Shown piece after piece: positions 9,825-36,036 of a stretch of DNA of 64,000 bases (the stretch's first letter is position 1; each line of letters begins with the position of its first letter). The translations under genes and the position numbers were made by a program. Origin of the DNA: Hydrocarboniphaga effusa AP103 (GTDB taxonomy: Bacteria > Pseudomonadota > Gammaproteobacteria > Nevskiales > Nevskiaceae); assembly GCF_000271305.1 (NCBI RefSeq), contig NZ_AKGD01000001.1, positions 2,467,501-2,531,500 of the forward strand. The letters run 5' to 3'. The notes beneath the pieces were generated by a model. It ran no database searches, had not been told where the DNA came from, and worked only from the letters and a program-made list of their open reading frames with translations.

Positions 9825-9826
9825 AG

Positions 9827-12021: not shown

Positions 12022-12043
12022 GGGCCGCCGTGCACTCAGGTTA

Positions 12044-12087: not shown

Positions 12088-12190
12088 GAAATTTATCGGA
12101 CCCAGTGGAATGCATGAAAATTCGAGTAACTCGTGATTTTCAGCTTGTTCTGACGAGTGAAGCGATGGAGGCAACCTCCATGATTCAAAA

Positions 12191-12210: not shown

Positions 12211-12253
12211 TAAATCGCCGCGTCCCTGTACCGAACCAAGAACGTCCGAGGCC

Positions 12254-14074: not shown

Positions 14075-14088
14075 GCGATCACCCAGAC

Positions 14089-14727: not shown

Positions 14728-14743
14728 ACGGAGCCTTCAAAGC

Positions 14744-16180: not shown

Positions 16181-16207
16181 AACAGTTCGATACAGCCTCG
16201 AGGCATC

Positions 16208-17710
16208 ATGAGTTTTCCAGAAATTCCTGCTGATCAGTCACCGGAATGGAGTTCCCTGCAATCCGCCGCTGCTCGCATCCGGCACCGAATCCGCGACGAT
16301 GGCGTGTTGCGCCATTGCGATCCCGCGGCCGTGCTTGCGATCGAGGAACTGGGCATCGAACTCGACGGCACGCGTCAATGGTTGGATGCGGCGGCGCTCG
16401 ATAGCCTTCACGCATTCGCGCGTGCACAGCAGCTCGAAGCTCGGCGCGATGCGCTGCTCGGCGGTGCGCTCGTCAATCACAGCGAACGGCGGGCGGCGCT
16501 GCACGGCGCCTTGCGTTCGCCGAAGACGGCCTCGATCGTGTCCGGCGGCCAGGATGTCGTGCCGCTGGTGCACGCAACGTTGGCGCGCATGCGCGAGCTT
16601 GCGGACGCGTTGCATGCCGGCCGGCTGACCGGCGCCGGCGGCACCCCGATCACGGACATCGTCAACATCGGCATCGGTGGCTCCGATCTCGGGCCGCGCC
16701 TGGTCTGCGACGCATTGCAGGATGAAGCCCCCGACCATCTGCGCGTGCATTTCCTGTCGAACGTCGACGGCACCGGCGCTGCTCGCCTGATGCGCAAGCT
16801 GCGTCCTGCCGCGACACTGTTCATTGTCAGCAGCAAGAGCTTTGCGACGCGGGAAACACGCCTCAACGCCAAAACCCTGTTCGCGTGGTGCCTGGCCTCG
16901 GGACTGTCGGCGAGCGAGTTGCAGGCGCAGGTCTTTGCTGTCACCGCCCGACCTGCTGCGGCTGAAGAATTCGGCATTGCAGCGGACAACATCCTGCCAC
17001 TCTGGGATTGGGTCGGTGGCCGCTTCTCGGTATGGAGCGCGATCGGACTGCCGGTGGCCTTGCAGCTGGGCTATCGAAAGTTCGAGGAAATGCTCGCCGG
17101 GGCTGCAGCCATGGATCAGCATTTTGCCAAGGCCGAACTCGAACAGAACCTTCCGATGCGCATGGCTTTGCTGGCGATATGGAACGGCACGGTTCTGAAC
17201 ATGCCCAGCCATTGCGCAGTGGCGTACGACGATCGCCTGCGCTTGTTCGTCGATTGGCTGCAGCAACTGGAAATGGAGAGCAATGGAAAGGGGCGCACCG
17301 CTTCCGGCGAACGCCTCGCCTATGCCACCAGCCAGGTGGTCTGGGGAGGACTCGGCACCAATGATCAGCACGCCTACTTCCAGTTGCTGCGTGAAGGGAC
17401 GCGCGAAACCAGCATCGATCTGCTTTGCGTTCAGCAGCCTTCACATGCTTGCGCCGAGCACCACGTTGCCTTGTTGGCCAACGCCCGCGCGCAAGCCGAT
17501 GCGCTGGCCGACCGCGTAGGCGGTCGCGCTGGCGGAAATGCCGTGTCCGTACTCTCAATGAAAAAGTTCGACCCGCACATGCTCGGCATGCTGTTGTCGG
17601 CCTTCGAGCACCGCACTGCGATGATCGGAGCGGCGCTCGGCATCAACTCCTTCGATCAGCCTGGTGTGGAACTCGGCAAGCAGATGGCGGCAGCGCTGGA
17701 ACAGGCCTGA
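16208..17710 (+). CDS. pgi: Glucose-6-phosphate isomerase
   Basis: The 500-aa isomerase interconverts fructose-6-phosphate and glucose-6-phosphate. Signatures are VNIGIGGSDLGPRLVCDAL, SKSFATRETRLNA, DWVGGRFSVWSAIGLP and EHRTAMIGAALGINSFDQPGVELGK with the catalytic-region residues. It is slightly shorter than the E. coli enzyme (about 550 aa), as in many proteobacteria. It lies 27 bp after pyk and ends the operon. Its place here makes sense if fructose is the feed: Pgi runs backwards to supply Zwf with glucose-6-phosphate. Confidence 0.97.
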   Translation: MSFPEIPADQSPEWSSLQSAAARIRHRIRDDGVLRHCDPAAVLAIEELGIELDGTRQWLDAAALDSLHAFARAQQLEARRDALLGGALVNHSERRAALHGALRSPKTASIVSGGQDVVPLVHATLARMRELADALHAGRLTGAGGTPITDIVNIGIGGSDLGPRLVCDALQDEAPDHLRVHFLSNVDGTGAARLMRKLRPAATLFIVSSKSFATRETRLNAKTLFAWCLASGLSASELQAQVFAVTARPAAAEEFGIAADNILPLWDWVGGRFSVWSAIGLPVALQLGYRKFEEMLAGAAAMDQHFAKAELEQNLPMRMALLAIWNGTVLNMPSHCAVAYDDRLRLFVDWLQQLEMESNGKGRTASGERLAYATSQVVWGGLGTNDQHAYFQLLREGTRETSIDLLCVQQPSHACAEHHVALLANARAQADALADRVGGRAGGNAVSVLSMKKFDPHMLGMLLSAFEHRTAMIGAALGINSFDQPGVELGKQMAAALEQA

Positions 17711-18845: not shown

Positions 18846-21626
18846 ATGAAAAATGTTGAGAAGCTGCTGAGAGTCTTGATGCACGGCGCCTTCTATGTGG
18901 CCAGTGCGTCCTTGGTTCCGGGTTGCAGCGTAAGCATTCAGTTCGATGAGGCGGATTTGGGCGCGGGCGGGATGCCCGAGGTTCCGGAAGAGCCGGAAGA
19001 ACCGGGCGAATCCGACGTGCCGATCACCGACGTGCCCGCGACGGAGGGGCAGAGCCTCTTCGTCAGGAGCTCGGACCCGGGGCAGAACATCGCCGGCTTC
19101 GAGTTTTGCTGTGCGCAGTACGACACCTATCAAGAACACGGCTTTACCGATGCACAGGGAGACTTCATCAAGCTCGACGGCGGCTTCTGGGGCGCCGATA
19201 TCGCGGGCCACATCGGCGAGCGGGTCTTTTCGAGCTATGGCGACGGCTACGAGGATGATACGGATACGACCGCCGCACAGCTCGGCCCGGGTGCCACCGG
19301 CGAGATCTCCAGCCCCGCCTTCGTCATCACCAAGGACTACATCAATTTTCTGATCGGCGGCGGCAGGAATCGATTCGATGGAGTCAATGCAACGGCTGTC
19401 GTCCTGATCGTCGACGGGGCCGTCGTAAGACAGGCCCCCGGCAACGACGAGGAGAACGAGATCGTCTGGACCAGTTGGGACGTGAGGGATCTCGAGGGGC
19501 AGACGGCCGTCGTCAAGTTCATCGACCATCATCCGAACGACGGCTCCGATACTGCGGTTCCGTACATCCTGGCGGATGAGTTTCGCGCTGCGGACAAGGC
19601 CGCCGTGGCTCCGCCTGCCGCCAGCAAAGTGCCCGCAACTCCGGTCTTGAGCGCGGCACCGGCCAGCGAGGGCGCGTCGGCCTTTACGCGCGTGGGCAAC
19701 CCGGGGCAGAACATCGCGGGCTTCGAGTTCTGTTGTGGTGGCTACAACACCTATCAGGAGCATGGCTTTGTCAGCACGGGGGATATCATCCGGCTGAATG
19801 GCGGCCAGTGGGGCGCCGATATCGCGGGTACGGTCGGAGAGCGCCTGTTCGCCAGTTACGGTCCGGGATTCGCCGACGACATGGGTTCGTCGGGCGTCGA
19901 CTACGGATGGGAGGCGACCGGCACGATGACCAGTCCCCAGTTCACGGTCACCACGCGATATCTCAACCTGCTCATCGGTGGCGGCACGAATGCTTACGAT
20001 CAGCCGCTGGCGACGGCAGTGGTGCTGAGAGTCAACGGCAAGATCGTTCGCCACGCTACCGGTAACGGCATGGAGAAGCAGCTGAGCTGGGTGTCGTGGG
20101 ATGTATCCGCGCTGATTGGTCAGACTGCGGTCATCGAGATCATCGATCGGCACGACAACTCGGCCAGCACGGGGGCCTGCCCCTTCATCCTGGTCGATGA
20201 AATTCGCGCCGCGAACAAGGCGGCTGTCGCGCCGGTCCCGAGTTCGATCGTCAGCACAGCGGAGGGTCACACGCAGCTGTTGAATCTCGATATGGCGGAT
20301 GCCAATCCGTACTACGAGAACGGCGTCTATTACATCTACTACCTGCAGAATCTGGGATTCCATTCCTGGGCACTGGCGAAGACCAGCGATCTGCTGAACT
20401 CGACTTTTCCGCAGGAAGTGCTGCCGGCTTCGGGTGATGCGAGCCGACAAGACCAGTTCGTCGGGTCGGGAAGCGTGCTGAAAGCGCAGGATGGTCAGTA
20501 CCATCTTTTCTATTCGGGTCACAACGCGGACCATGCGCCGGTCGAAGCCGTGATGCACGCCACGGCCGCCGACAACACCTTGACGAAATGGACACCCGTT
20601 GCTGCCGATACCTTCAGCGGATCGGCGGGTTACAGCGACTTCGATTTCCGCGATCCGTTCGTCTACTGGAACCAGTCTGCCGGAAAATACTGGATGCTGA
20701 TCACCACACGGCATTCCTCGCAAGCCGCCATTGGTCTATACACGTCGACCAATCTGAGCAACTGGTCTGCCGAGCCTCCGTTGTACATCGAGGCATCTCC
20801 GTTGAATTTCGAAGTGGCCGATCAATTCACGCTCGGCGACACGCCTTACATCGTCTACTCCGATCAGCGTGATGCTTCCCGCCAGGTCAAGTATCTCCAG
20901 CAGAGCGGTGCCAACTGGATCAAACCCTCATTCGATGCACTGGATGGCAAGTGGTTCTATGCCGCGAGAAGCGCGGGAACGGCCGGCGAGCGCCTGCTGT
21001 TCGGATGGGTTCCCCATACCGTCGGCCGGGTCGACCATGCAGGCCCGGATTTTGGGGGCAGCCTGATGGTGCATCAGGTGGCCTCGCTCGGCAGCGGAGC
21101 GCTGGCCGTATCGATGCCCCAGCGCATTCGCGACGGTCTTGCTGCCATACAGCCCATCGCCATGGAGTGGTCTGCCGGAGGAGTCTCGGCCATCGGTACG
21201 ACCGTCAATATGGAGGCGAACTCAGCGTTCACGCTCGCCGAACTCGGTGTGAAGAACCGCATGGCCTTCAAAGTCACGAGTGCCAATGCAGGCAGTACGT
21301 TCGGCATTCAATTGCGTCGCGAAATCAGCGGGCAGCCTGACGAACGGGCGTTCCTGAAAATAGATGCCTCAGCGGACAAGGCCGAGTTCTACTTTCAGGG
21401 CGAGGAGGGCGCGGCCTCCAATCCGAAAGTCGCTGTTCCGCTCGATAGTTCGGACGGGATCGATATCGAAGTGCTGCTCGATCCGGTGGCGGGTGTGGGG
21501 GCGGTGTATCTGAATCGGAATCGCGCGCTCAGCTTCCGGCTTTATGCGTTGGCCAACTACCAAGTCGGCCTGTTTTCCAACGCGGACGGTCTGACCGTGA
21601 CCGATCTGAGTCGCTACACCAAGTAA
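18846..21626 (+). CDS. Divergent GH32-like fructan-active lipoprotein with duplicated beta-sandwich modules
   Basis: The 926-aa protein starts at ATG 18846 behind GAGGAGAAAATA. A signal peptide ends in LVPGC (Cys27, a plausible lipobox), followed by a Pro/Glu-rich linker. Two related modules occupy about 70-255 and 278-465; both contain DPGQ/NPGQNIAGFEFCC, GxWGADIAG and a GGG...VDG/VNG...WDV core that also occurs inside the other GH32 protein of this locus. The C-terminal clan-J five-blade region has DMADANP (Asp485 as likely nucleophile), FRDP at 601-604 and FEVADQF (Glu656 as possible acid/base) instead of the classic WMNDPNG, RDP and EC. It probably binds and cuts surface fructan; catalysis needs proof. 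Confidence 0.8.
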   Translation: MKNVEKLLRVLMHGAFYVASASLVPGCSVSIQFDEADLGAGGMPEVPEEPEEPGESDVPITDVPATEGQSLFVRSSDPGQNIAGFEFCCAQYDTYQEHGFTDAQGDFIKLDGGFWGADIAGHIGERVFSSYGDGYEDDTDTTAAQLGPGATGEISSPAFVITKDYINFLIGGGRNRFDGVNATAVVLIVDGAVVRQAPGNDEENEIVWTSWDVRDLEGQTAVVKFIDHHPNDGSDTAVPYILADEFRAADKAAVAPPAASKVPATPVLSAAPASEGASAFTRVGNPGQNIAGFEFCCGGYNTYQEHGFVSTGDIIRLNGGQWGADIAGTVGERLFASYGPGFADDMGSSGVDYGWEATGTMTSPQFTVTTRYLNLLIGGGTNAYDQPLATAVVLRVNGKIVRHATGNGMEKQLSWVSWDVSALIGQTAVIEIIDRHDNSASTGACPFILVDEIRAANKAAVAPVPSSIVSTAEGHTQLLNLDMADANPYYENGVYYIYYLQNLGFHSWALAKTSDLLNSTFPQEVLPASGDASRQDQFVGSGSVLKAQDGQYHLFYSGHNADHAPVEAVMHATAADNTLTKWTPVAADTFSGSAGYSDFDFRDPFVYWNQSAGKYWMLITTRHSSQAAIGLYTSTNLSNWSAEPPLYIEASPLNFEVADQFTLGDTPYIVYSDQRDASRQVKYLQQSGANWIKPSFDALDGKWFYAARSAGTAGERLLFGWVPHTVGRVDHAGPDFGGSLMVHQVASLGSGALAVSMPQRIRDGLAAIQPIAMEWSAGGVSAIGTTVNMEANSAFTLAELGVKNRMAFKVTSANAGSTFGIQLRREISGQPDERAFLKIDASADKAEFYFQGEEGAASNPKVAVPLDSSDGIDIEVLLDPVAGVGAVYLNRNRALSFRLYALANYQVGLFSNADGLTVTDLSRYTK

Positions 21627-21847: not shown

Positions 21848-23092
21848 ATGGCAACGCGCGTCGGCCAGGGCCGAAACTCGATCAATCTGAGACGCTACAA
21901 CGAGCGGCTTGTTCTGCAGGTGCTGCGTCGCGTGGGCCCGGCATCCAAAGCGGATCTGGCGCGTCGTACCAATCTGGCCAACAGCGCGATCGGCAACATC
22001 GTGCAGGCGCTGGAAAACGATGGGCTGGTCGAACTCAAGGGACGCATGCTCGACGGGCAGCGCGGCCAGCCGGCCACGCTCTTGATGCTCAATCCCAAGG
22101 GGGCTTTCGGAGTAGGCGTCCGCCTCGACCGCGAGTTGATCGAAACTGTTCTTACCGATTTCAACGGCGAAATCCTCACGCGCCGGGTACATCGTCAGCT
22201 GCTTCCGTTGCCTCAAGACGCATTGAAGCTGGTGTGTCGGGACATCAAGGACGTGCTGAAGGTGATCCCGCCACGGCAGCGAGAGCGACTGGCCGGTATC
22301 GGGTTGGCACAGCCCTACAATCTGGGCGCCTGGCTAAACGAACTGGGCTACGCCGGCAAGGATTTTCTGCCCTGGGACGACTATGACTTCGCGGCGGAAC
22401 TTTCCCGCGCGACCGGCATTCCGGTCTTCAGCGAGAACGACGCCAACGCCGCGGTCATCGCCGAACTGTTCTACGGTTGTGGCCGCAGGTTCGATGACTT
22501 CGCGTATGTGTTCATGGGCGCTGTCATCGGCGGAGGTGCGGTGATCGCCGGTGAATGCCTCCTCGGTGCGTCCGGGAACGCGTGCGACATCGCCGTCATG
22601 CCGGTGCCCTCGAGCACCTTGCCTTCTGCACGTCCGAATCGAGCCGCATGGGACATCCTGCTATCTCGTGCATCGCTGAACGCGCTGGAGCGCCACCTGC
22701 GTCACTCCGGCCTGCACATAGGCTCAAACGTTGCCGAACTGGAACCCTATGTGGCGCAGCGCCATCCAGCCGTCATGGAGTGGCTGGACGACTGCGTCGA
22801 TGCACTCGCGCCGGCTTTACGCTCGATCGTGTGTCTGCTCGACGTGCCGGTTCTGGTCATCGACTCCGACGTCGATGCGGGGTTGATCGACTGCTTGATG
22901 GAGCGCCTGAGAAACCTGCTGCAGCAACAGGCGCCCGAAGCGCGAAGTGTGCCCGAGTTCGTCCGTGGCACTTTCGGATCCGACGCAGGTGCCGTTGGAG
23001 CCGCCTGCCTGCCGATGTTTTTCAGTTATTCGCCGCGCGCTGAAATCCTGCGCGGCAGCGTCGAATCGATAGAGGCAGATCATGCCGGTTGA
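21848..23092 (+). CDS. ROK-family transcriptional regulator of the fructan locus
   Basis: The 414-aa protein has an N-terminal winged helix ([19 protein letters not shown], about residues 30-62) and a C-terminal ROK fold with [19 protein letters not shown] and [20 protein letters not shown]. The usual ROK zinc motif CxCGxxGCxE, which normally follows that loop, is not seen; the segment reads [13 protein letters not shown]. It is therefore probably a sugar-sensing repressor and not a kinase. It is the first gene of a transport operon: the ABC ATPase start overlaps its end by 11 bp. It probably binds the AT-rich boxes at 18358 and 21790. Confidence 0.88.
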
Positions 23093-24626
23093 ACAGAAGC
23101 AGGCCCCCATCCTGGAGATGCGCCGGATCTCCAAAAGCTTTCCCGGAGTCAAGGCTCTGTCCGAGGTGTCGTTGACCTTGCGGGCCGGAGAGATTCACGC
23201 ACTGATGGGGGAGAACGGCGCGGGCAAATCGACCCTGATGAAGATCTTGTCCGGTGCCTACACGGCCGATCCGGGCAGTCGCATCCTGATCGATGGCTGC
23301 GAAGTGACGATCAACGGACCGCTGAGCGCACGCGCGCTCGGCATTGCGGTGATCTATCAGGAGTTCAGTCTTTCCGCCAATCTCACCGTCGCGGAGAACA
23401 TTTATCTGGGCAGGGAGTTGCGTCGCTTAGGCGTGGTCGACCGCCGCGCGATGGCGAAGGGGTGCGAGCCCATCCTGCGGCGCCTCGGAGCAAGCTTTGG
23501 TCCCGAGGCGCTGGTCAGTGATCTTTCCATCGCGGAGCGTCAGCTGGTGGAAATCGCACGCGCGCTGCATGCCAAGGCGCGCATCCTGGTGATGGACGAG
23601 CCCACCACGCCATTGTCGTCTCGCGAAACCGGTCAGCTTTTCAGCATGATCCGCGAGCTGCGCGAAGACGGAATGGCGATTGTCTATATCAGCCATCGGA
23701 TGGAAGAAATCTACGAGCTCGCGGACCAGGTTTCCGTGCTGCGCGATGGAACCTACGTGGGGACGCTGGATCGCAGCGTGCTCTCGGCCGAAACGCTGGT
23801 GAAGATGATGGTCGGGCGCGACCTTTCGGGGTTCTACAAAAAAACCCACGACGTCTATCAACGCGGCGAATGCGTGCTCTCCGTACGTGGCCTCTCCGAC
23901 GGGCGCCGTGTCCGCAACTGCAGTTTCGATCTGCATGCCGGTGAAGTGCTCGGCATCGCCGGTCTGGTGGGCGCCGGACGGACGGAACTGGCGCGTTTGC
24001 TGTTCGGCGCCGAGCGTCGGCGCTCCGGTTCGATTCGCCTGCGCGGCGCCGACATCAATATGCGCACGCCTCTGGACGCCATCCGCGCGGGCCTGGCGTA
24101 TCTGACCGAGGATCGCAAAGCGCAGGGCTTGTTTCTCGACATGAGCGTCAACGAGAACATCAACGTCTGCACCTATTCCCGCGAGGCGCGCGCAGGCGTG
24201 CTGAGCTTGTCGAAAGCACGGCTGCGCAGCCGTGATGCCATTCGAACGCTCGGCATTCGTGTGCACTCGCCGGACGTCAATGTCGGATCGCTCTCCGGTG
24301 GCAACCAGCAGAAAGTGCTGCTGTCGCGGCTCATCGAACTGAGCCCGCATGTTCTGATCCTCGATGAGCCGACGCGAGGCGTGGACATCGGAGCGAAATC
24401 CGAGATCTACAGGATCATCGCGAAGCTCGCCCAGGAAGGCATGGCGGTCGTCGTGATCTCCAGCGAACTGCCCGAGATCATCGGCACTGCCGATCGGGTC
24501 CTCGTCATGCGGGAGGGCGAGCTCGTTGGCGAGCTTGGAGGCGATACCGGTCAGCCGATTACGCAGGAAGCGGTGATTGCCCTGGCGACCAGCGGCGATC
24601 GGGCGAGCTTGTCCGCAGCAGCCTGA
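23082..24626 (+). CDS. Sugar ABC transporter ATP-binding protein (RbsA/MglA type, two NBDs)
   Basis: This 514-aa protein contains two fused nucleotide-binding domains. NBD1 has Walker [10 protein letters not shown], signature LSIAERQ and Walker [19 protein letters not shown]2 has the degenerate [16 protein letters not shown] (Arg in place of the Walker Lys, normal for this family), LSGGNQQK and [18 protein letters not shown]. It powers import with the permease and binding protein just downstream. The start overlaps the regulator gene by 11 bp, so translation is probably coupled. Context (GH32 enzymes, PfkB kinase) points to fructose or short fructo-oligosaccharides as substrate; the sequence alone does not show it. 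Confidence 0.93.
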
Positions 24627-24656: not shown

Positions 24657-25661
24657 ATGAAATCTTCAGGTACGACAACCATGCCCCCCCTGTCAGGCCA
24701 GCCCGGCACCCATTTTCGCGAGCACTTGATGCGATGGTTTCGCGCCGCCGGCATGTTGCCCGTGCTCCTGGTGCTCTGCCTTGGATTCAGCCTGGGTGCA
24801 GAGGGCTTTCTGAGTGCACAGAACCTGTCCATCGTGACGCAGCAGGCGTCGATCAACATCGTTCTGGCAGCAGGGCTCACGTTCGTGATTCTCACGGGTG
24901 GCATCGATCTGTCCGTCGGCTCGGTGCTGGCGGCTTCGGCGGTGATTGCAGTGCTGGTGTCGAACGTGCCCGGTTACGGCATGTTGAGCATTCCGGCGGC
25001 CATTTTCACCGGGCTGGCATTCGGTCTGATCAACGGCGGCCTGATCGCGGGTCTGAAACTCCCTCCGTTCATCGTGACCCTCGGTTCGCTGACGGCGGTT
25101 CGCGGTATCGCCCGACTGATGGCGGACGACAAGACCGTGTTCAACCCGGACCTGCCGTTTGCCTTCGTCGGCAACGAGTCCGTTCTGGGGATGCCGTGGC
25201 TGGTGGTGATCGCAATGGCGGTTGTGGGAGCTTCGTGGTTCATCCTGCGGTGCACGGTTCTCGGTGTGCAGATCTACTGTGTCGGCGGCAACCCGGATGC
25301 CGCCCGGCTTTCCGGCATCAAAGTCTGGAAGGTGCTGCTGTTCACCTATGCCATCTCCGGGCTGTTGTCGGGCATTGGCGCGATCATGACGACGTCGCGG
25401 CTGTTTGCCGCCAATGGTCTGCAACTTGGCCAGTCGTACGAGCTCGATGCCATCGCCGCCGTGATACTCGGCGGCACCAGTTTCGTCGGCGGTGTCGGCT
25501 CGATCGTGGGCACCCTGGTAGGCGCGTTGATCATCGCGGTTCTGACCAATGGCCTGATCCTGCTGGGCGTGTCCGATATCTGGCAGTACATCATCAAGGG
25601 AATCGTGATCATCGGCGCTGTCGTGCTCGATCGTTACCGCCGTTCGGGTGCCCGTACATAA
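24657..25661 (+). CDS. Sugar ABC transporter permease (RbsC type)
   Basis: The 334-aa inner-membrane protein has about eight to ten hydrophobic segments and the BPD_transp_2 signatures TFVILTGGIDLSVGSVLA, LPPFIVTLGSLTAVRGIARL, GGNPDAARLSGIKV and GGTSFVGGVGSIVGTLVGA. It pairs with the two-NBD ATPase 30 bp upstream and the periplasmic binding protein 61 bp downstream. An alternative ATG at 24681 sits just before a C7 tract (24684-24690), in the soluble N-terminal tail. Substrate is inferred from context as for the ATPase. Confidence 0.93.
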   Translation: MKSSGTTTMPPLSGQPGTHFREHLMRWFRAAGMLPVLLVLCLGFSLGAEGFLSAQNLSIVTQQASINIVLAAGLTFVILTGGIDLSVGSVLAASAVIAVLVSNVPGYGMLSIPAAIFTGLAFGLINGGLIAGLKLPPFIVTLGSLTAVRGIARLMADDKTVFNPDLPFAFVGNESVLGMPWLVVIAMAVVGASWFILRCTVLGVQIYCVGGNPDAARLSGIKVWKVLLFTYAISGLLSGIGAIMTTSRLFAANGLQLGQSYELDAIAAVILGGTSFVGGVGSIVGTLVGALIIAVLTNGLILLGVSDIWQYIIKGIVIIGAVVLDRYRRSGART

Positions 25662-25722: not shown

Positions 25723-26658
25723 ATGATCAGATTGTTTTTCACCGCAGCGCTGGTGTCCTTGGCCTGCATCGCCAACCCGGCGGCGGCCAAGGAACTGAAG
25801 TCCATCGGGGTCACCGTCGGTTCGCTGGGGAATCCCTTTTTTGTCGCCATCGTGCGTGGTGTGGAAAGCCAGGCCAAGCTGTTGAACCCGCACGTCAAGG
25901 TGACTGCGCTGTCTGCGGACTACGACCTCAACAAGCAGTTCAATCAGATCGACAGCTTCATATCGGCGCGCGTCGACATGATCGTCATCAACGCAGCCGA
26001 TCCGAAAGCCATCGAGCCCGCCGTGCGTCGTGCGCAGAAAGCGGGAATCGTGGTGATCGCTGTCGACGTGTCGGCCGCAGGGGCCGATGCCACGGTGCAA
26101 ACCGACAACGTCAAAGCCGGAGCGATGGCTTGTCAGCACATCGTCGACAAGCTGCAAGGCAAGGGCAACGTCATCATCGAGAACGGGCCGCAGGTGTCGG
26201 CCGTGATCGATCGCGTCAATGGCTGCAAGAGCGTGCTTTCAAAGCAGCCCGGCATCAAGGTGCTGTCGGATGATCAGGATGGCAAGGGTTCACGCGATGG
26301 CGGCCTCAGCGTGATGCAGGGGCTGCTGGTGCGCTTTCCGAAGATCGACGGCGTGTTCGCCACCAATGATCCGCAGGCGATCGGCAGCGATCTGGCCGCG
26401 CGGCAGTTCAAGCGTACCGGCATCGTGATCACCTCTGTGGACGGCGCTCCGGACATCGAAGTCGCCCTCAAGAACAAGAACAGCCTGATCTCCGCCTCCG
26501 CCAGCCAGAACCCCTGGGCGATGGCGCGCCAGGCAGTGGAGCTGGGCGCTGGCATCGTCGGTGGCAAGCGTCCCGAGCAACCGGTACTGCTGATCCCTCC
26601 GACCCTGGTCACGCGTGATGACGTCGCCACTTATCGGGGCTGGGCCACGCCTCAATGA
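25723..26658 (+). CDS. Periplasmic sugar-binding protein of the ABC transporter (RbsB type)
   Basis: The 311-aa protein begins with a signal peptide (MIRLFFTAALVSLACIANPAAA). It continues with the type I periplasmic binding fold: SIGVTVGSLGNPFFVAIVRG, SADYDLNKQFNQIDSFI, IVINAADPKAIEPAV, QTDNVKAGAMACQHIV and GVFATNDPQAIGSDLAARQF. RbsB-type proteins bind pentoses and hexoses such as ribose, galactose or fructose. A strong AGGAGG-like site precedes the ATG. In this operon it would deliver fructose released in the periplasm to the permease. Confidence 0.92.
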   Translation: MIRLFFTAALVSLACIANPAAAKELKSIGVTVGSLGNPFFVAIVRGVESQAKLLNPHVKVTALSADYDLNKQFNQIDSFISARVDMIVINAADPKAIEPAVRRAQKAGIVVIAVDVSAAGADATVQTDNVKAGAMACQHIVDKLQGKGNVIIENGPQVSAVIDRVNGCKSVLSKQPGIKVLSDDQDGKGSRDGGLSVMQGLLVRFPKIDGVFATNDPQAIGSDLAARQFKRTGIVITSVDGAPDIEVALKNKNSLISASASQNPWAMARQAVELGAGIVGGKRPEQPVLLIPPTLVTRDDVATYRGWATPQ

Positions 26659-26721
26659 TCGGATTGGTCGTGCGCGCAACCGACGTCTCTCCCCGTGATT
26701 CCTCCTGCGAAAGGTAGTCCC

Positions 26722-27693
26722 ATGTTTCTGGTGTGTGGTGAAGCGCTGTTCGATGTGTTCATTGCGGGAAGTGCCGGCGCGCATTTGCAGATGGCTGCCC
26801 GGCCCGGCGGCTCGCCGTTCAACGTCGCCATCGGCTTGGCGCGCCAGGAAAAGCCGGTCCAGTTTTTTGGAGGTATCGCCAACGACATGTTGGGAAGCCG
26901 GCTTGTGTCCGCCTTGGAGGCCGACGGAGTCGGCGTCCAGTACCTGGTTCGGCTCGATGCTCCAACGGCGCTGGGGCTGGTCAGCGCGGACATCGGCGGG
27001 AATCCGGAATATGCCTTTTACGGCGTGGGCACGGCGGATCGCGGGATCACGGTCCAGCATCTGATGAGGCTGGACGAGAGCATCCGGGCGATTCATATCG
27101 GCTCGTTCAGCGCGGTAGTGGAGCCTGTCGGCCTGACTTTTGAAACCCTGATCCGTCGTGAGCGCGGCACTCGCCTGATTTCCTACGATCCGAATGTGCG
27201 GCTCAACGTCGAGCCATCGATCGAAGTCTGGCTCGCGCGTATAGAACAACTCGTGAAACTGTCGGATGTCATCAAGATCAGCGAAGAAGATGTTCAGCTC
27301 ATCTATCACGGAATCCAGCATGCGGAGCTTGCACATCGCTGGCTCGATGCCGGCGCCGCACTGGTGGTGATCACTCGAGGCGAGCGCGGTGCGCGGGCTT
27401 GGAATCATTCTGCCTTTGCGGAAGTGGATGGCAAGCCCGTCGATGTCATCGACACGGTGGGGGCGGGAGATACATTTCAGTCGGCAATGCTGAGCTGGCT
27501 GGCCGATACCGGAAATCTGGCGGCAGGCGCGGCCTCGTCCATCGATTCGATCCATCTCCACCGCATGCTGGAATACGCCGCCCAAGCCGCCGCATTGACC
27601 TGTACCAGGCTGGGCGCCGACATGCCGTACAAGGCGGACATCATCGATTGGATGTGCAGTCGCTCAACGGCCGACCGCGCCTGGCTCGGGTAA
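26722..27693 (+). CDS. PfkB-family sugar kinase, probable fructokinase
   Basis: The 323-aa kinase starts FLVCGEALFDVF, has the glycine-rich GGSPFNVAIGLARQ substrate region near the N-terminus, SYDPNVRLNVEP, and the C-terminal PfkB signature DTVGAGDTFQSAML with the catalytic aspartate. The ATG at 26722 has AAGG about 8 bp upstream; an in-frame ATG nine codons earlier is less likely. It is the last gene after regulator-ATPase-permease-binding protein. Phosphorylation of imported fructose to fructose-6-phosphate would feed the pgi gene 9 kb away. The exact sugar is inferred from context. Confidence 0.88.
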   Translation: MFLVCGEALFDVFIAGSAGAHLQMAARPGGSPFNVAIGLARQEKPVQFFGGIANDMLGSRLVSALEADGVGVQYLVRLDAPTALGLVSADIGGNPEYAFYGVGTADRGITVQHLMRLDESIRAIHIGSFSAVVEPVGLTFETLIRRERGTRLISYDPNVRLNVEPSIEVWLARIEQLVKLSDVIKISEEDVQLIYHGIQHAELAHRWLDAGAALVVITRGERGARAWNHSAFAEVDGKPVDVIDTVGAGDTFQSAMLSWLADTGNLAAGAASSIDSIHLHRMLEYAAQAAALTCTRLGADMPYKADIIDWMCSRSTADRAWLG

Positions 27694-28089: not shown

Positions 28090-31000
28090 ATGAACACCAC
28101 GCCATTATATATGTTGTACACGCTCGCGGCCGCCTGTGTGGCTGGCTGCAGCGTGGCTCATGCGCAGGACGACTCGGCGGCGCCGAGTACGCAGGAGGTC
28201 AGCGAGGACAAGGACGCATCCGAGCAAGGCGAGGAACCGGCCGCTTCGACCGGTGCCATCGAAGAGATCGTCGTGACGGGCTACTCGACGTCCGCTAAGA
28301 AAGACATCATCGGCGCCGCCTCGGTCGTGGATATCGGCGAGATCGCCGATCAGCCTTCGGGCAACGTCATTCGCAGCTTGCAGGGCCGATTACCCGGTGT
28401 GCAGATCACCACCAGCGGCAACCCGAATGCCAAAGCGCTGATACGCATTCGTGGACAAGGACTGGGACCTCTGGGGTTCAACGACCCGCTGTACGTCATT
28501 GATGGTGTGCCCACGCTTGCGGGGCTGGAGTCCCTCAACCCGAACGATATCGATTCGATCCAGGTTCTGAGGGATGCGGCGACTGCGAGCATTTATGGCG
28601 CGCGCGCAGGTAACGGCGTCATCGTCATCACGACGAAGAAGGGCGCGCCCGGAATGGATCTGTCCATCCGTGCGAACCAGTCGATCGAGCAGTTCGGCTA
28701 CAACGTTCACCCCTTGAACACCCCGCAGCGTGCGCAGGCTGTGTTCAATGCTGCGATCAATGATCGAACCCATCCGAATAATGCCAGCTCGCTTTATCTC
28801 TACGACTGGAACAACGACTTCGACAACCCTGTCCTCAATGGAGTGACTTACGGTCGCTTTACCGATGCCGCGGGCAATCGCTACATCGACGGTGCAATGA
28901 CCATGCAGCCGGCCAACACCAACTGGTTCGAGGCCGTCACGCAGCAGGCAACCGTTCGCGATGTCAACGTATCGCTCTCGAACGCCGGCGAAGGATCGAG
29001 GTTCTATACATCGGTCGGTTACTACGATGCCAGAGGCATCGTGAAGGAATCCGGCTTCGAAAGGATTTCGCTGCGACTGAATTCGGATCACAGCCTGTTC
29101 GACGACAAAGTCACCATCGGCGAAAACTTCTACATCAACAATCAACGCGAGAATGTGGTCAACGATCTGGCCGGACAGATCCTCGGCCTCGCCATCGAGC
29201 AGCAATCGATCGTGCCGATCCGCACCGCGGACGGCAAGGGCTATGGAGGACCGACCGGGGGCGTCACGGATCGCGACAATCCGGTTCGGATCATCGATCA
29301 GAACAAGGACAACATCAGCAGGTTCAACAAGGTCATGGGCAACATCTTTGTTGAGTATCGCCCGATCGAAGATCTCCAGCTGAGAAGCAACCTGGGCATC
29401 GACTACGGCAGGTTCTATTTCAGGAACTACAAACGCGCTGCGCAAGCGGGAAATCTGAGCTTTCTGGACAGTCTCAACACTTCCGAATCCTGGCAGTACA
29501 CGCTGGTCTTCTCCAACACCGGCGAATACAAATTCACGTTGGGTGACGATCACAACTTCACGGTCCTGGCGGGCACCGAGACCATCGATTTCAGGTCCGA
29601 GAACTTCTTTGGGGCCGTCAGCGGCTTCGCTTCCCTGAACCGGAATTTCGCCTACCTCAGCCAAGGGACGACCAACCCTTCAGTGGGAGGCGGCGGCGAT
29701 TCCTGGGGATTGCAGTCTTACTTCACGAAGATCGATTACGACTACGACCAGAAATACCTGGCCTCCGTGACGGTACGTCGCGATGGATCCTCGCGGTTCG
29801 GAAGCAACAACCGCTGGGGCAACTTTCCCTCGGTATCCGCGGGCTGGAGAATCTCCAACGAGCCGTTCTTCAACCTCGATTCGATCAACGATCTGAAGTT
29901 CCGTGCGAGTTGGGGCCAGAACGGAAACCAGGAGATCAGCACCGGCGCCACGTCTACGATCTTCGTGCCGCGATACTCGACGACGTCGCTGTTCACCAAC
30001 CAGCAGGATGAGGGAACGGCCTACGATCTCAATGGCGTCAATTCGGGCAGCCTGCCATCGGGCTTCGCGAGAGTTCAGATGGGCAACGAGGATCTGAAGT
30101 GGGAGACCTCGACCCAGACGAATCTGGGCCTCGATTTCTCGATGCTGGACAACCAGTTCTTCGGCTCTTTCGACTGGTTCAGGAAGCGCACGGACGACAT
30201 CCTGACCCTCACCAAGCCGCTCGCCGCCGAGGGGGAGGGTGCACTTCGGGTGGTCAACGGCGGCACGATCGAGAACAAAGGTTTCGAAATCCTGCTGGGA
30301 TACAACACGGCGCTCGAGTTCGATCGTATCGGACGGTTTGACGTCAGCGTGTCGGCGAACTACTCCGTCGTCACCAACAAGGTGCTTGCGCTGCCCGATG
30401 ACGTCGTGAACTCGTTCGGTGGCGATGGCCAGACCAAAACCATCCTTGGCCGATCGGTCAACTCGATCTTCGGCTACTACGCCGACGGACTTTTCCAGAA
30501 TCAGGCCGAGGTCGAGGCCCACGCCACTCAGTCGGGTGCCGCACCAGGCCGGATTCGATACCGGGATCTCAATGGCGACGGCGTCATCAACGACAAGGAC
30601 CAGGACTTTTTCGGTACCACCGATCCCGATTCCACGTTCGGCCTGAACTTCGATGTGAAGTACCAGAACTGGGACTTCAACATGTTCTGGCAAGGCGTGC
30701 ATGGTGGCCTGGTGAAGAACTACTGGCAGGGCTTCACGGACTTCACATCGCTGAATGCAGGCTCCAACTACGGCTATCGCACCCTCGATGCCTGGTCGCC
30801 GTCAAACACGGGCAGCAGTGTTCCGGCGCTGACCCTGGTGGACAGCAACAATGAAGGACGGGAATCGACCTACTACTGGGAAAAGGGCACGTATCTGAAG
30901 CTGCGTAACCTTTCCGTCGGATATTCACCGGCGGGTCGCGTACTGAGCTTTTTCAACTTGAAGACTGCCCGTGTTTTCCTGCAGGCGCAGAACATTCTGA

Positions 31001-31101
31001 CCGTCAAGCCAAGTGGAACGCTCATCCAGGATCCGGAGAGCCCCGGCAGTTCGTTCCCGGTACCGAAGCGGTACACGTTTGGCCTCGAGGCCACGTTCTA
31101 G
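28090..31101 (+). CDS. SusC/RagA-family TonB-dependent outer-membrane transporter
   Basis: This 1003-aa protein has a signal peptide ending near AHAQ (residue 26), an acidic linker, a TonB-box-like EEIVVTGY (about 58-65) and a plug domain with the SusC hallmarks LQGRLPGVQITTSGNPNA, IRIRGQG, PLYVIDGVP and IQVLRDAATASIYGARAGNG. A beta-barrel follows, ending in KRYTFGLEATF. Unlike many SusC proteins it has no carboxypeptidase-like domain before the TonB box, only about 30 acidic residues. It is 54 bp upstream of a SusD-like lipoprotein. The pair should capture fructan fragments and import them across the outer membrane. Such pairs are typical of Bacteroidota, so transfer is possible. Confidence 0.93.
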   Translation: MNTTPLYMLYTLAAACVAGCSVAHAQDDSAAPSTQEVSEDKDASEQGEEPAASTGAIEEIVVTGYSTSAKKDIIGAASVVDIGEIADQPSGNVIRSLQGRLPGVQITTSGNPNAKALIRIRGQGLGPLGFNDPLYVIDGVPTLAGLESLNPNDIDSIQVLRDAATASIYGARAGNGVIVITTKKGAPGMDLSIRANQSIEQFGYNVHPLNTPQRAQAVFNAAINDRTHPNNASSLYLYDWNNDFDNPVLNGVTYGRFTDAAGNRYIDGAMTMQPANTNWFEAVTQQATVRDVNVSLSNAGEGSRFYTSVGYYDARGIVKESGFERISLRLNSDHSLFDDKVTIGENFYINNQRENVVNDLAGQILGLAIEQQSIVPIRTADGKGYGGPTGGVTDRDNPVRIIDQNKDNISRFNKVMGNIFVEYRPIEDLQLRSNLGIDYGRFYFRNYKRAAQAGNLSFLDSLNTSESWQYTLVFSNTGEYKFTLGDDHNFTVLAGTETIDFRSENFFGAVSGFASLNRNFAYLSQGTTNPSVGGGGDSWGLQSYFTKIDYDYDQKYLASVTVRRDGSSRFGSNNRWGNFPSVSAGWRISNEPFFNLDSINDLKFRASWGQNGNQEISTGATSTIFVPRYSTTSLFTNQQDEGTAYDLNGVNSGSLPSGFARVQMGNEDLKWETSTQTNLGLDFSMLDNQFFGSFDWFRKRTDDILTLTKPLAAEGEGALRVVNGGTIENKGFEILLGYNTALEFDRIGRFDVSVSANYSVVTNKVLALPDDVVNSFGGDGQTKTILGRSVNSIFGYYADGLFQNQAEVEAHATQSGAAPGRIRYRDLNGDGVINDKDQDFFGTTDPDSTFGLNFDVKYQNWDFNMFWQGVHGGLVKNYWQGFTDFTSLNAGSNYGYRTLDAWSPSNTGSSVPALTLVDSNNEGRESTYYWEKGTYLKLRNLSVGYSPAGRVLSFFNLKTARVFLQAQNILTVKPSGTLIQDPESPGSSFPVPKRYTFGLEATF

Positions 31102-31155
31102 TCCGGCGCTGCGATCCGACCCGGACAAACCAAATTAAGCGATGAGGAGCTGGAC

Positions 31156-32886
31156 ATGAAGATCCATCACAAGAAACTGCTGCCGCTTGCGCTGATCCTT
31201 GCGCTGTCGGCGTGCGGCGAGGCAGGGCTCGAGAAGGAGCCTTCCGGAACACTCACCGAAGCTGAAGTTCAGACCATCGAGAATCTCGATGGTCTGGTGA
31301 CTGCAGCGTATTCCTATATTGGAAACGACCACTACACGGCTCCCAACTTCCTGTGGCCGACGGGAAACCTGAGGGCAGGCGACGCGCACAAGGGAGGTAA
31401 CGGTCCCAGCGATATCTTCGTCTATCACGCGCTGTCGATGTACAACCTGATCGTGCCCGACATGGCGTCGTTCCCGCCCGATTTCGTCGATCTGAACGAC
31501 AAGAAATGGCAACGAAACTACACTGCCATCTCTCGTGCCAATACAGCCCTGCGCACGATGGCCGACGTTTCGGATGCCGACTATCCGCAGAAGGCGATAC
31601 GCCAGGGCGAGCTTCATTTCCTGCGTGGCCTCGTCTACTTCGACTTGAAGATTCATCACAAGCACGTTCCCTACATCGACGAGAATGTCCCGCAGGACGA
31701 CATCAAGAACATCTCCAACATGCAGTTCTCCGATCAGGAGCTGTGGGATCTGATCGTCACCGATTTCAGGATCGCGGCGGAAAAGCTTCCGCCTACTCAA
31801 ACTCAGGTGGGTCGTGCGGCAAAGTTCGCCGCCAAGGCGATGCTGGCCAAGGCGCTGCTGTATCAGGCCTATGTCCAGAACGATACGCACGCTGTGGTAT
31901 CGATCGATCAGGCCAAGCTCCGGGAGGTAGTGAGCCTGGTCGAGGAAATCGAAGCTTCGGGGCTGTATGGACTGCTATCGGATTACGGCGACAACTTCCT
32001 GCCGCAGTTCGACAACAACAAGGAGTCGGTCTTTGCGATTCAGCGCTCGGTCGACGATGGCTCGGTTGAAGGCAACGGCGGGCGCGGATCGTGGCCTACT
32101 GCGCTGAACTATCCGGTCGGAAACAGCGGGTTCGGCTGCTGCGGGTTCCATATTCCGACGGAAAACTTCGTCAACTCCTTCAAGACTCAAAATGGGCTGC
32201 CGTACGACGCGGCAAACAACGCGAACTACAAGCTGTCAGATCCGGTCGATCCACGCCTCGATCACACGGTCTCGATGGAGGGAAAGCCTTTCAAGTACAG
32301 CACCGGCACCGGTCCGACCGCCGTTCATCAGGGGAACGCATGGGCACGCAACCCGGCCACTTACGGTAGCTATGTGTCGATGAAGGAACTCGTGAGTCGC
32401 GACAGTCCGGCGCTTGCTCAGAATGGACCGTTCTTCATTTCCTCGATGAACACCGTGCTGGTTCGGTACGCCGATGTGCTGCTGTGGAAAGCCGAGGCCC
32501 TGATCGAACTCGGGCGGCAAGACGAAGCCCTACCCATCATCAATAGCTTGAGAACACGGGCTGCCAACAGTCAGGGCCGGCTCGTCGGCACGGGCAGTAC
32601 TTACCGCATCTCGACCTATTCGTCATTCGCCGATCAGGAGGCCGCACGCAAAGCGTTGAGGATCGAGCGGCGTTTGGAGCTTGGGCTTGAGGGCTATCGC
32701 TTCTTCGACTTGGTACGTTGGGGCGTCGCCAAGTCGACGATCGATGCCTATCTCGCGGTGGAAGGGGGCCGCAAGCCCTACCTCCAGAGTGCCTCGTTCA
32801 CGGCAGGCAGGGACGAGTATCTGCCCATTCCGCAGCAGCAGATCAATTTGAGTCGCGGCCTGTACCAGCAGTTGCCCGGCTATTGA
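31156..32886 (+). CDS. SusD/RagB-family surface glycan-binding lipoprotein
   Basis: The 576-aa protein has a lipoprotein signal with lipobox LSAC (Cys20), the N-terminal EKEPSGTLTEAEVQTIENLDG helix region and TPR-like helices (AAKFAAKAMLAKALLYQAYV). It has the SusD C-terminal signature VRYADVLLWKAEALIELGR, then ERRLELGLEGYRFFDLVRWG and YLPIPQQQINLS, as in family members. It would form the lid on the SusC-like barrel. It lies between the SusC gene and the second GH32 gene, all in one direction, most likely one transcript. Confidence 0.94.
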   Translation: MKIHHKKLLPLALILALSACGEAGLEKEPSGTLTEAEVQTIENLDGLVTAAYSYIGNDHYTAPNFLWPTGNLRAGDAHKGGNGPSDIFVYHALSMYNLIVPDMASFPPDFVDLNDKKWQRNYTAISRANTALRTMADVSDADYPQKAIRQGELHFLRGLVYFDLKIHHKHVPYIDENVPQDDIKNISNMQFSDQELWDLIVTDFRIAAEKLPPTQTQVGRAAKFAAKAMLAKALLYQAYVQNDTHAVVSIDQAKLREVVSLVEEIEASGLYGLLSDYGDNFLPQFDNNKESVFAIQRSVDDGSVEGNGGRGSWPTALNYPVGNSGFGCCGFHIPTENFVNSFKTQNGLPYDAANNANYKLSDPVDPRLDHTVSMEGKPFKYSTGTGPTAVHQGNAWARNPATYGSYVSMKELVSRDSPALAQNGPFFISSMNTVLVRYADVLLWKAEALIELGRQDEALPIINSLRTRAANSQGRLVGTGSTYRISTYSSFADQEAARKALRIERRLELGLEGYRFFDLVRWGVAKSTIDAYLAVEGGRKPYLQSASFTAGRDEYLPIPQQQINLSRGLYQQLPGY

Positions 32887-32960: not shown

Positions 32961-34976
32961 ATGAGAACCAAGCTTGGCATTCTGGTGTTTGCGACATGCA
33001 TCACCAGCGGGGTCGCGATGGCGGATGAAATGTACCGAGAGCCGTTACGGCCCCAATTTCATTTTTCGCCGCCTCAGCGATGGATGAACGATCCCAACGG
33101 AATGGTGTTCCATGCGGGGGAATATCATCTTTTCTATCAGTACAACCCCTACGGAAACACCTGGGGGCCAATGCATTGGGGGCATGCGATCAGTCCGGAT
33201 ATGGTGCATTGGGAAAACTTTCCGATCGCGCTGTTTCCCGATCGGCATGGGGCGATGTTCTCGGGTAGCGCCGTCGTAGACCAAAACAATACCTCGGGCC
33301 TGGGCACGGAAGGCAATCCCGCGATGGTGGCTTTGTTCACCTATCACGATGCGATAGCGGAAAGCGCCGGGCGCAAGGATTTCCAGGCACAGGGTATGGC
33401 GTACAGCCTGGACAAAGGGCGCACCTGGGTGAAGTTTGCAGGGAATCCGGTCTTGCCCAATCCAGGTATCCAGGACTTCAGGGATCCAAAAGTCTCCTGG
33501 TTCGAACCGCAGAAGAAATGGATCATGACTCTGGCCGTGTCGGACCATGTCAGCTTCTATTCCTCAAAGGATCTGAAAACCTGGACACATGAAAGTGACT
33601 TCGGCGAGCAATGGGGCGGACACGGCGGTGTTTGGGAGTGTCCCGACCTCATCGAGATGCCGGTTGAAGGCGAAGGCACCAAGAAAACCGTGCTCGTGGT
33701 CAGTCTGAATCCAGGAGGCCCCAATGGCGGTTCCGGGACCCAGTATTTCGTCGGCCATTTCGACGGCCATGCGTTCACGCTCGACAGGGAGTTCCAAAAA
33801 CGGCTTGCGATTACGCCTTCCGCCCAGCGAATGGGAAGCGCCTTCGATCCGTTCAGCGATGTGCAGTGGAAGGCTTCCGGCAACGCGTTCGCCGCGGAGG
33901 CGGCGCTGCGCCCGCCGCTATCGATTCGATCCTCCAAGGATATCCCCGACGCGACCGGCGTCCTGCGGTCGCGCCCGTTCAAAATCGAAAAGCGCAACAT
34001 CAATTTCCAGATCGGCGGTGGACGATATCCCGGAATCGCCGGCATGCAGCTTCTGGTCGACGATGTCGTCGTGCGCACGGAGACCGGTCGCAACAACGAT
34101 CTCGCCGAGCATCCGGTGACGGTCAACTGGGATGTTTCAGCTTGGATCGGGAAGTCCGCAACGCTCGAGATCGTCGATGGGGTTGGCGGTGACTGGGGAT
34201 ACACCGAGGTCAGCGACATCCGGTTTTCGGACAAGCCGGCCTCGATCAAACCCGTGATCGCGGCTTGGCTCGACTACGGTACGGACAACTACGCGGGCGT
34301 TTCATGGGCAGGTGTGCCCAGGTCCGACGGACGCACGCTCATGGTGGGGTGGATGAACAATTGGGAGTACGCCCAGAAGCTCCCGACCGAAGGCTGGCGC
34401 GGTGCGATGACCTTGCCTCGTGAGCTGAAGCTGAGCCGCGGAAAGCAAGGTCTCGAATTGATCTCCGTGCCAGTCAAAGAGCTGCAAGTGCTTCGTGCAG
34501 AGCGCGTCGAGCTGGCGAGCGGGCCCATCGGCGAGCCGATCGAGCTGCTGGATCAGCTGAACGCCAGGAGTTCCGGTCAGTTCGAGCTGAACATCGACGT
34601 GGATCTTCGTGGCACTAAAGCGCTGGATCTGGTTCTCTCCAGCAAGGCAGGGGAGAAAACGACTTTCCGCATCGACAGAAGCTCAGGCCAGTACAAACTG
34701 GACCGGTCGTTGTCTGGGGTAACAAAGTTCAGCCACCCGTTCAACGCGATACAGACCGCACCCATGGCGGATGCTGGCAAGAAGATTTCCCTGCAGATAT
34801 TCGTTGATCGCTCGTCCATCGAAATATTCGTCGATGGCGGAAGAACGGTCTTCACAAGCTTGTTGTTTCCGACCGCCGTTTATGACTCCGCGGTGCTCAG
34901 CGCGGATGGCGAAACCACGCTGTTGTCGGCGCAGGCGTATGAGCTGCGATCGATCTGGGAGGGCACCTCTCGATAG
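32961..34976 (+). CDS. GH32 fructan hydrolase (levanase/inulinase/invertase family)
   Basis: The 671-aa protein has a signal peptide (MRTKLGILVFATCITSGVAMA) and a canonical GH32 five-blade propeller. WMNDPNG at 41-47 carries nucleophile Asp44, RDP is at 174-176 with the stabiliser Asp, and ECPD starts at 226 with acid/base Glu226. A module of about 130 residues (297-424: INFQIGGGRYPGIAGM, VDDVVVRTETGR, VNWDVSAWIGKSA) interrupts the propeller before AWLDYGTDNYAG. It is homologous to the twin modules of the other GH32 protein. A C-terminal beta-sandwich ends the protein (IFVDRSSIEIFVDGGRTVFT). It likely works in the periplasm or outside, releasing fructose; endo or exo action cannot be told. 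Confidence 0.95.
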   Translation: MRTKLGILVFATCITSGVAMADEMYREPLRPQFHFSPPQRWMNDPNGMVFHAGEYHLFYQYNPYGNTWGPMHWGHAISPDMVHWENFPIALFPDRHGAMFSGSAVVDQNNTSGLGTEGNPAMVALFTYHDAIAESAGRKDFQAQGMAYSLDKGRTWVKFAGNPVLPNPGIQDFRDPKVSWFEPQKKWIMTLAVSDHVSFYSSKDLKTWTHESDFGEQWGGHGGVWECPDLIEMPVEGEGTKKTVLVVSLNPGGPNGGSGTQYFVGHFDGHAFTLDREFQKRLAITPSAQRMGSAFDPFSDVQWKASGNAFAAEAALRPPLSIRSSKDIPDATGVLRSRPFKIEKRNINFQIGGGRYPGIAGMQLLVDDVVVRTETGRNNDLAEHPVTVNWDVSAWIGKSATLEIVDGVGGDWGYTEVSDIRFSDKPASIKPVIAAWLDYGTDNYAGVSWAGVPRSDGRTLMVGWMNNWEYAQKLPTEGWRGAMTLPRELKLSRGKQGLELISVPVKELQVLRAERVELASGPIGEPIELLDQLNARSSGQFELNIDVDLRGTKALDLVLSSKAGEKTTFRIDRSSGQYKLDRSLSGVTKFSHPFNAIQTAPMADAGKKISLQIFVDRSSIEIFVDGGRTVFTSLLFPTAVYDSAVLSADGETTLLSAQAYELRSIWEGTSR

Positions 34977-35103: not shown

Positions 35104-36036
35104 ATGACTCCGCACTCCTCCGCAGCCCCTCCGTTCACCGCGCGCCTGATCGCCCCCTGGTACTGGCCGACCTGGCTTGCGATCGGCCTGCTCTGGCTGG
35201 TCGTCCAGCTGCCCGTGCCCTGGGTGCTCGCCCTCGGATCGGGTTTCGGCCGGGCACTGGGCCGGCTCGCGGGTAGCCGGCGGCAGGTCGTGTTGACCAA
35301 CCTGCGCGTCTGCTTTCCGGATCTGCCGCAGCAGGAGCACGAGCGGCTCGCGGGCGAGCACTTCGCCGCGGTGGGCGCGGGCGCGGTCGAAGCCGGCATC
35401 GCCTGGTTCGCGTCGGATGCCCGGCTGGCCCCCCGGTTTGCGATCGAAGGGCGCGAGCATCTCGACGCGGCGCTGGCGTCCGGCCGCGGTTTCCTGCTGC
35501 TGACCGGGCATTTCACGACGCTCGAGATCGGCGCCCGCGTGCTGTGCACCTCCGCGCGGCTGCCGTTCCACGCCATGTACCGGCCTTACAACAACGCGGT
35601 GCTCGATTTCTGCATGCACCGCTGGCGCGAGAACCGATCGAAGCTGCCGGCCCTGCCGCGCGACGACCTGCGCCGGCTCGTGCGTGCCCTGCGCGAAGGC
35701 CGGGCGATCTGGTACGCGCCCGACCAGACCCTCGACGAGAAGATTTCGGTGTTCGCCCCTTTTTTCGGCGTGCAGACGCTCACCCTGACCGCCACCGCCC
35801 GGCTTGCGCAGATGGGCCGGGCCGGGGTGCTGCCGTACTTCCCGCGCCGCGAGGGCTCGCGCTGGGTGGTCCGTTTCCTGCCGCTGCTCGAAAACTTCCC
35901 GAGCGGCGACGAGCTGGTCGACGCGCGGCGCATCAATGCGCTCATCGAGGAGGGCGTGCAGCTTGCGCTGCCCCAGTATTTCTGGATCCATCGTCGCTTC
36001 AAGAAGCGACCTGCCGGTGAGAGAAAGCTCTACTGA
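35104..36036 (+). CDS. Lipid A biosynthesis acyltransferase (LpxL/HtrB family)
   Basis: The 310-aa inner-membrane enzyme adds a secondary acyl chain to Kdo2-lipid IVA. It has an N-terminal hydrophobic anchor (WLAIGLLWLVVQLPVPWVLA), RRQVVLTNLRVCFPDL, the catalytic H(X4)E motif in LLLTGHFTTLEIG, the MYRPYNN block and WYAPDQTLDEK. All match LpxL/LpxM-type acyltransferases. Which of the paralogues it is cannot be decided from sequence. It follows the fructan locus in the same direction but is separated by a hairpin, and it relates functionally to waaA at 7395. Confidence 0.92.
   Translation: MTPHSSAAPPFTARLIAPWYWPTWLAIGLLWLVVQLPVPWVLALGSGFGRALGRLAGSRRQVVLTNLRVCFPDLPQQEHERLAGEHFAAVGAGAVEAGIAWFASDARLAPRFAIEGREHLDAALASGRGFLLLTGHFTTLEIGARVLCTSARLPFHAMYRPYNNAVLDFCMHRWRENRSKLPALPRDDLRRLVRALREGRAIWYAPDQTLDEKISVFAPFFGVQTLTLTATARLAQMGRAGVLPYFPRREGSRWVVRFLPLLENFPSGDELVDARRINALIEEGVQLALPQYFWIHRRFKKRPAGERKLY

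Follow-up and report, generated by a model that had tools for sequence, protein, structure and literature searches.

The 64,000-nucleotide stretch of Hydrocarboniphaga effusa AP103 analyzed here (the window; contig NZ_AKGD01000001.1, positions 2,467,501 to 2,531,500) contains adjoining genes for a SusC-like TonB-dependent transporter and a SusD-like lid lipoprotein, with ROK, ATP-binding cassette (ABC) transporter and fructokinase genes directly upstream and a glycoside hydrolase family 32 (GH32) gene directly downstream (Table 1). A sequence-only reading of this DNA had proposed such a pair, and it stands with exact coordinates. SusC matches the curated SusC/RagA model TIGR04056 with 676.6 bits (7.5e-203; curated cut-off 368.25 bits) and carries the SusC/RagA signature TIGR04057 (53.9 bits, against a cut-off of 46.2). 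SusD, which has the lipobox LSAC20, matches PF07980 over its full length, together with PF14322, in Pfam.

The transporter lacks the carboxypeptidase-like N-terminal extension (NTE). Its TIGR04056 match spans model positions 76-981 only, and Pfam found the plug and barrel domains in SusC and did not find PF13715, the family of the extension. From the end of the signal peptide (after AHA, before Q) to the TonB box there are about 30 residues, rich in D, E, S and A, in agreement with the shortened N-terminus that the sequence-only reading had described. Residues 12-57 of the predicted SusC model have a predicted local distance difference test score (pLDDT) below 50, so that no folded domain is predicted in place of the NTE. 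An extension overlooked through a wrongly placed SusC start was ruled out, as neither TIGR04056 nor Pfam detected one and a six-frame search of the genome returned model positions 76-981 only. Since SusC falls inside the SusC/RagA family by both the curated model and the tree, it is best classified as an NTE-less variant within that family rather than as a non-member. At the level of whole genomes, TIGR04056 matches over the cut-off are single in each gammaproteobacterial genome checked, starting at model positions 70-85, and many in each Bacteroidota genome, starting at positions 1-3.

Both proteins have N-terminal sorting sequences that look proteobacterial in style. The host's own TonB receptors have a signal peptide, an Ala/Glu-rich linker and IEEIVVT-type boxes, the same style as the window SusC. 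From its lipid cysteine onward SusD reads CGEAGLEK, which does not conform to the export signal of Bacteroidota lipoproteins, where the lipid cysteine is followed by a polar residue and then by two or three acidic ones (PMC5080379). Glycine occupies the +2 position of SusD in 29 of 31 gammaproteobacterial rows, against 1 of 36 Bacteroidota rows, in which N, S, T, D or K mostly stands there. The TonB box region varies in some relatives: in L018, L021, L024 and other Alteromonadales SusC proteins it reads EVIEVSYGYS, with one residue extra, and other members have VVTG or VVVG preceding GY.

Trees were built for SusD, for SusC without its N-terminal columns and for the concatenation of both, together with a careful concatenated tree and an approximately unbiased (AU) test. 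The SusD, SusC and joined trees agree in recovering one gammaproteobacterial clade that includes the window pair, is nested in Bacteroidota, and contains Rheinheimera, Cellvibrio, Marinimicrobium, Alteromonas, Pseudoalteromonas and others; its neighbors are L013 and L123, of the order Saprospirales, and then L031. In the careful concatenated tree the clade has support of 100/100 and its sister placement 91/92. The transfer from Bacteroidota suggested by the sequence-only reading is thus borne out for both proteins. The NTE is absent from all 31 gammaproteobacterial sequences and present in every Bacteroidota relative read (with a Pfam check on nine proteins). The simplest reading is that the NTE was lost once, on the stem of the clade. 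As the clade members share descent, the common N-terminal style of SusC and the common +2 glycine each count as about one event rather than many.

The relatives with known structures point to the nature of the cargo. The nearest solved structure to SusD is BT1762, by sequence and by the fold of the predicted model (template modeling score 0.84, 39% identity), and the nearest to SusC is BT1763, likewise by sequence and by fold; the two models have predicted template modeling scores of 0.83 for SusD and 0.71 for SusC. Among the fructan-contact residues of BT1762 and BT1763, taken from PMC7782687, D67, C299 and R368 of SusD and D406 of SusC are invariant in the aligned set, and C298 is present in all gammaproteobacterial rows. 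In the tree the window pair lies among fructan SusCD systems whose loci carry GH32 genes. Contact residues and structural relatives support a putative fructan importer, and a fructan is the likely substrate of the locus because it holds two GH32 genes, which the sequence-only reading did not mention. Taken as a whole, we consider it highly probable that the pair is a fructo-oligosaccharide importer of the BT1762/BT1763 type, derived from one transfer from Bacteroidota, near Saprospirales, to Gammaproteobacteria, with an early loss of the NTE and a patchy spread.

Several observations weigh against this account. Within the gammaproteobacterial clade the basal branching order lacks resolution, and codon use and G+C content at third codon positions (GC3) do not by themselves show transfer. 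One of the nearest Bacteroidota relatives, L013 from Phaeodactylibacter, is a metagenome-assembled genome (MAG), although the Bacteroidota-type hybrid two-component genes in the L013 and L123 loci argue for correct binning. Finally, D41, N43, W85 and Y395 of SusD and T380, D383 and N901 of SusC, all contacts in BT1762/BT1763, are not kept at the aligned positions; most of these vary within Bacteroidota too. With several ligand contacts not conserved, levan is best treated as a candidate substrate alongside inulin. Another beta-fructoside (inulin or a mixed fructan) may be the substrate instead, with the origin of the pair unchanged, an alternative that we regard as less likely than not. It draws on the altered W85, D41 and T380 and on the secreted GH32, which is closest to exo-inulinases (top PDB match, exo-inulinase 8i12; a signal peptide is visible in the translation), and it is countered by the match of the surface GH32 to the GH32 of the levan utilisome and by the retained cysteine pair and R368.

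Could the pair instead have entered this genome recently and straight from Bacteroidota, with an NTE loss of its own? Among 85 genomes sampled from the order, this one alone has a PF07980 SusD, and the insert is absent from the site in related genomes; moreover, SusD is as similar to L013 (66% identity) as to its gammaproteobacterial relatives. Yet the window clusters with a further 19 gammaproteobacterial rows at a support of 100, both in the concatenation and in SusC without N-terminal columns, the AU test rejects a grouping of the window with L013 and L123 (p 0.0005), the short N-terminus and +2 glycine are common to the clade, and GC3 is near the genome's own. We consider such a recent event very improbable. 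The interpretation in the sequence-only reading was hence right in outline and too local: a transfer and shortening specific to this genome do not agree with 31 clade members that share the short N-terminus or with the AU test, and both events are better seen as old and shared.

Equally improbable, in our estimation, is old vertical inheritance, in which SusCD was present in a gammaproteobacterial ancestor and lost nearly everywhere. The gammaproteobacterial members do form one clade, in which the window branch is long and basal, but this clade is nested deep in one fructan-specific Bacteroidota group, and of the 369 genomes in the class only 2 have any SusD (the second being fragmented and 7% contaminated), so that very many losses would be needed. 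The insert is also cleanly bounded in this genome. The sequence-only reading had named, as grounds against transfer, vertical inheritance within a gammaproteobacterial clade whose members share the short N-terminus; the clade and its short N-terminus were found, whereas the sparse occurrence (1 of 85, 2 of 369, and a SusD relative in 21 of 295 genomes of Rheinheimera's family) speaks against vertical inheritance. Named carriers include Rheinheimera, Paraglaciecola, Alteromonas, Pseudoalteromonas, Marinimicrobium and a Cellvibrio MAG. In Catenovulum adriaticum, which comes from algae, one SusD of the clade is carried by a 672-kb plasmid (L124, NZ_CP109966.1:253102-254811), a location that also sits poorly with vertical descent and points to a possible vehicle for spread.

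Least likely of all is a binning or assembly artefact from a contaminating Bacteroidota, for which the host assembly's 8.28% estimated contamination and repeated stretches might speak, because the locus lies within a 2.6-Mb contig, continuous with waaA and lpxL, flank neighbors match same-genus genomes, codon use fits the genome, and relatives occur in named isolates and on multi-megabase contigs. As for the repeats, pairs of equal-score matches, spaced a constant distance of roughly 203.5 kb apart (G000:C1:4887-5294/208419-208826 and 71582-72025/275114-275557), point to either a large duplication or a repeat in the assembly, a possible cause of the 8% contamination estimate.

The gap between waaA and lpxL measures 26.5 kb here, against about 200 bp in G007 (same genus) and G030 (another genus). 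Its left half holds Entner-Doudoroff genes that have no counterpart at the site in G007 or G030. These genes form a second set; another edd, 71% identical, lies elsewhere in the same genome (G000:C4:564659-566476). No direct or inverted repeats of at least 9 bp were found at the insert borders, and the endo-GH32 occurs in none of the other three genomes of the genus. G+C content falls from 0.637 in the sugar-phosphate genes to 0.582 in the SusCD-GH32 part, compared with about 0.66 in most of the genome sample; GC3 lies at the 28th percentile of the genome for SusC and the 20th for SusD, and codon use is only mildly unusual. Composition and codon use were dropped as proof of transfer, the signal being too weak. 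Beyond waaA, a ligase-associated DNA damage response exonuclease (TIGR04122; 6245-7294, minus strand) adjoins that gene and keeps its place in G007 and G030. Farther out, a type I restriction-modification region occupies 370-6214 on the minus strand, with an hsdR-like gene (3428-6214), a specificity subunit (2358-3431) and a Schlafen/AlbA_2 protein (370-2361).

Table 1. Genes and features of the insert and its flanks, in window coordinates.
Feature	Position	Strand	Remarks
waaA (Kdo transferase), left flank of insert	7395..8660	-	
Insert left half, Entner-Doudoroff genes	8889..17710	hexR, pgl, zwf (-); edd, eda, pyk, pgi (+)	eda from translation
GH32 lipoprotein, surface endo-levanase-like	18846..21626	+	PF00251; lipobox LVPGC; mechanical ORF start 18768
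ROK-family transcriptional regulator	21848..23092	+	PF00480 plus helix-turn-helix
Sugar ABC importer ATPase, RbsA/AraG-like	23082..24626	+	Two ABC domains; family matches
Sugar ABC importer permease, RbsC-like	24657..25661	+	Family matches
Periplasmic sugar-binding protein (Peripla_BP_4)	25723..26658	+	Closest solved structure 4rwe, sugar-binding transport protein
PfkB-family kinase, fructokinase-like	26695..27693	+	PF00294; top NCBIfam match fructokinase, under cut-off
SusC-like TonB-dependent transporter without NTE	28090..31101	+	TIGR04056, Plug/barrel Pfam matches; 1003 aa; signal peptide 1-26, acidic linker about 27-57, TonB box EEIVVTG 58-64, plug 70-177, then barrel
SusD-like lid lipoprotein	31156..32886	+	PF07980/PF14322; 576 aa; lipobox Cys20, Gly at +2, vicinal Cys328-Cys329
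Secreted GH32, exo-inulinase/exo-levanase-like, likely periplasmic	32961..34976	+	PF00251/PF08244
lpxL (lipid A acyltransferase), right flank of insert	35104..36036	+	

The right half of the insert is an operon-like run from 18.8 to 35.0 kb, in which the GH32 lipoprotein, ROK regulator, ABC ATPase, permease, binding protein and PfkB kinase precede SusC, SusD and the secreted GH32. Promoter and terminator scans gave no more candidates than shuffled sequences. The link of the pair to an inner-membrane ABC transporter, described in the sequence-only reading as a mixed architecture, is confirmed: Bacteroidota-type outer-membrane parts are combined with proteobacterial-type inner-membrane and regulatory parts. 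A hybrid two-component fructose sensor was not found in the window locus, and the ROK regulator, 37% identical to ROK proteins encoded next to SusCD in Rheinheimera and Cellvibrio, sits there. A PDB search with the GH32 lipoprotein returned five matches only, all of them GH32 chains and including the levan utilisome entries 8a9y, 8aa0 and 8aa2, and the protein is 58-60% identical to its counterparts in the Rheinheimera and Cellvibrio loci. In its N-terminal part a module some 200 residues long (GQNIAGFEFCC...; window 18846-20400) is present twice, and a module-like stretch is inserted in the secreted GH32 (about 33900-34250; 41% over about 107 aa). These repeats are possibly fructan-binding modules.

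We propose the following model for the origin and working of this system. SusCD would have entered Gammaproteobacteria once, out of a Bacteroidota lineage close to Saprospirales; the NTE would then have been lost before the known gammaproteobacterial members diverged, with patchy spread among them afterwards. Judging from the protein families, the surface GH32 lipoprotein would cut levan or another fructan to oligosaccharides, the SusD lid would close over SusC with the oligosaccharide, and TonB, acting through the EEIVVTG box, would drive it into the periplasm. There the secreted GH32 would free fructose, to be taken up by the binding protein and ABC importer and phosphorylated by the kinase, with the ROK protein as the likely regulator. 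The pgi, zwf, pgl, edd, eda and pyk genes of the same insert could take fructose-6-phosphate on to pyruvate. The genes and their families, the single clade, the absence of the NTE, the insertion site and the conserved part of the fructan site are observed, and substrate, transport, activity, surface exposure and the reason for the NTE loss are deduced. Adaptation to a proteobacterial TonB may plausibly account for that loss.

What is the relevance of a SusC without its extension? SusD has been described as exclusive to Bacteroidota, or SusCD pairs as missing from Gammaproteobacteria (PMC8319329, PMC10100682, PMC11573768, PMC12175321, PMC1790865), and a description of a gammaproteobacterial NTE-less SusCD clade was not found in the open-licence literature. 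The well-supported clade contradicts a Bacteroidota-only SusD and bears on the use of susCD as a Bacteroidota marker in metagenomes. The NTE has been described as general for SusC (PMC7782687), and the TIGR04056 cut-off can be reached without it. When the NTE of BT1763 was deleted in B. thetaiotaomicron, no growth on levan could be detected, an effect without a known mechanism, and the NTE has been suggested to help in the choice between TonB proteins (PMC7782687); naturally NTE-less relatives make NTE function directly testable by domain swaps. The clade also raises the question of how SusD comes to be displayed on the surface of a gammaproteobacterium when the Bacteroidota export signal is absent. 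Conceivably, in what we judge to be not quite an even prospect, the clade consists of working SusCD importers that never need the NTE or that export signal. If so, the NTE would serve not transport as such but a partner specific to Bacteroidota (a certain TonB, or outer-membrane assembly), and SusD would reach the surface by another route in these bacteria.

The window locus was also compared with the closest known systems. Proteobacterial carbohydrate TonB-dependent receptors (PMC1790865) share with the window SusC a signal peptide, a short linker and an IEEIVVTG-type TonB box; unlike it, they have no SusD partner and fall outside SusC/RagA. The loci of Rheinheimera pacifica (L010), Cellvibrio (L016), Marinimicrobium (L019), Alteromonas (L021) and Catenovulum (L124) belong to the same clade, lack the NTE, mostly have the +2 glycine in SusD and have GH32 neighbors. 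ROK and PfkB genes are common to the window, Rheinheimera and Cellvibrio loci, whereas the Rheinheimera, Cellvibrio and Alteromonas loci have major facilitator superfamily (MFS) sugar transporters in place of the RbsABC-like importer of the window, and the Alteromonas and Catenovulum loci have LacI regulators. Unlike these loci, the window fructan locus is joined to Entner-Doudoroff genes. The sister group, the Saprospirales-type fructan SusCD of L013 and L123 (SusC 57-58%, SusD 63-66% identical), differs in having the NTE and a hybrid two-component sensor. The levan SusCD BT1762/BT1763 of B. thetaiotaomicron (PDB 5t3r, 6z8i, 8aa0; PMC7782687) is 42% identical in SusC and 41% in SusD. The window locus differs from it in the missing NTE, the SusD lipobox (CGEAG versus CDDFL), several changed ligand contacts, an ABC rather than an MFS importer, and a ROK regulator rather than a hybrid two-component system. 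It has in common with it a surface endo-GH32, an exo-GH32, a fructokinase, the cysteine pair, D67, R368 and D406.

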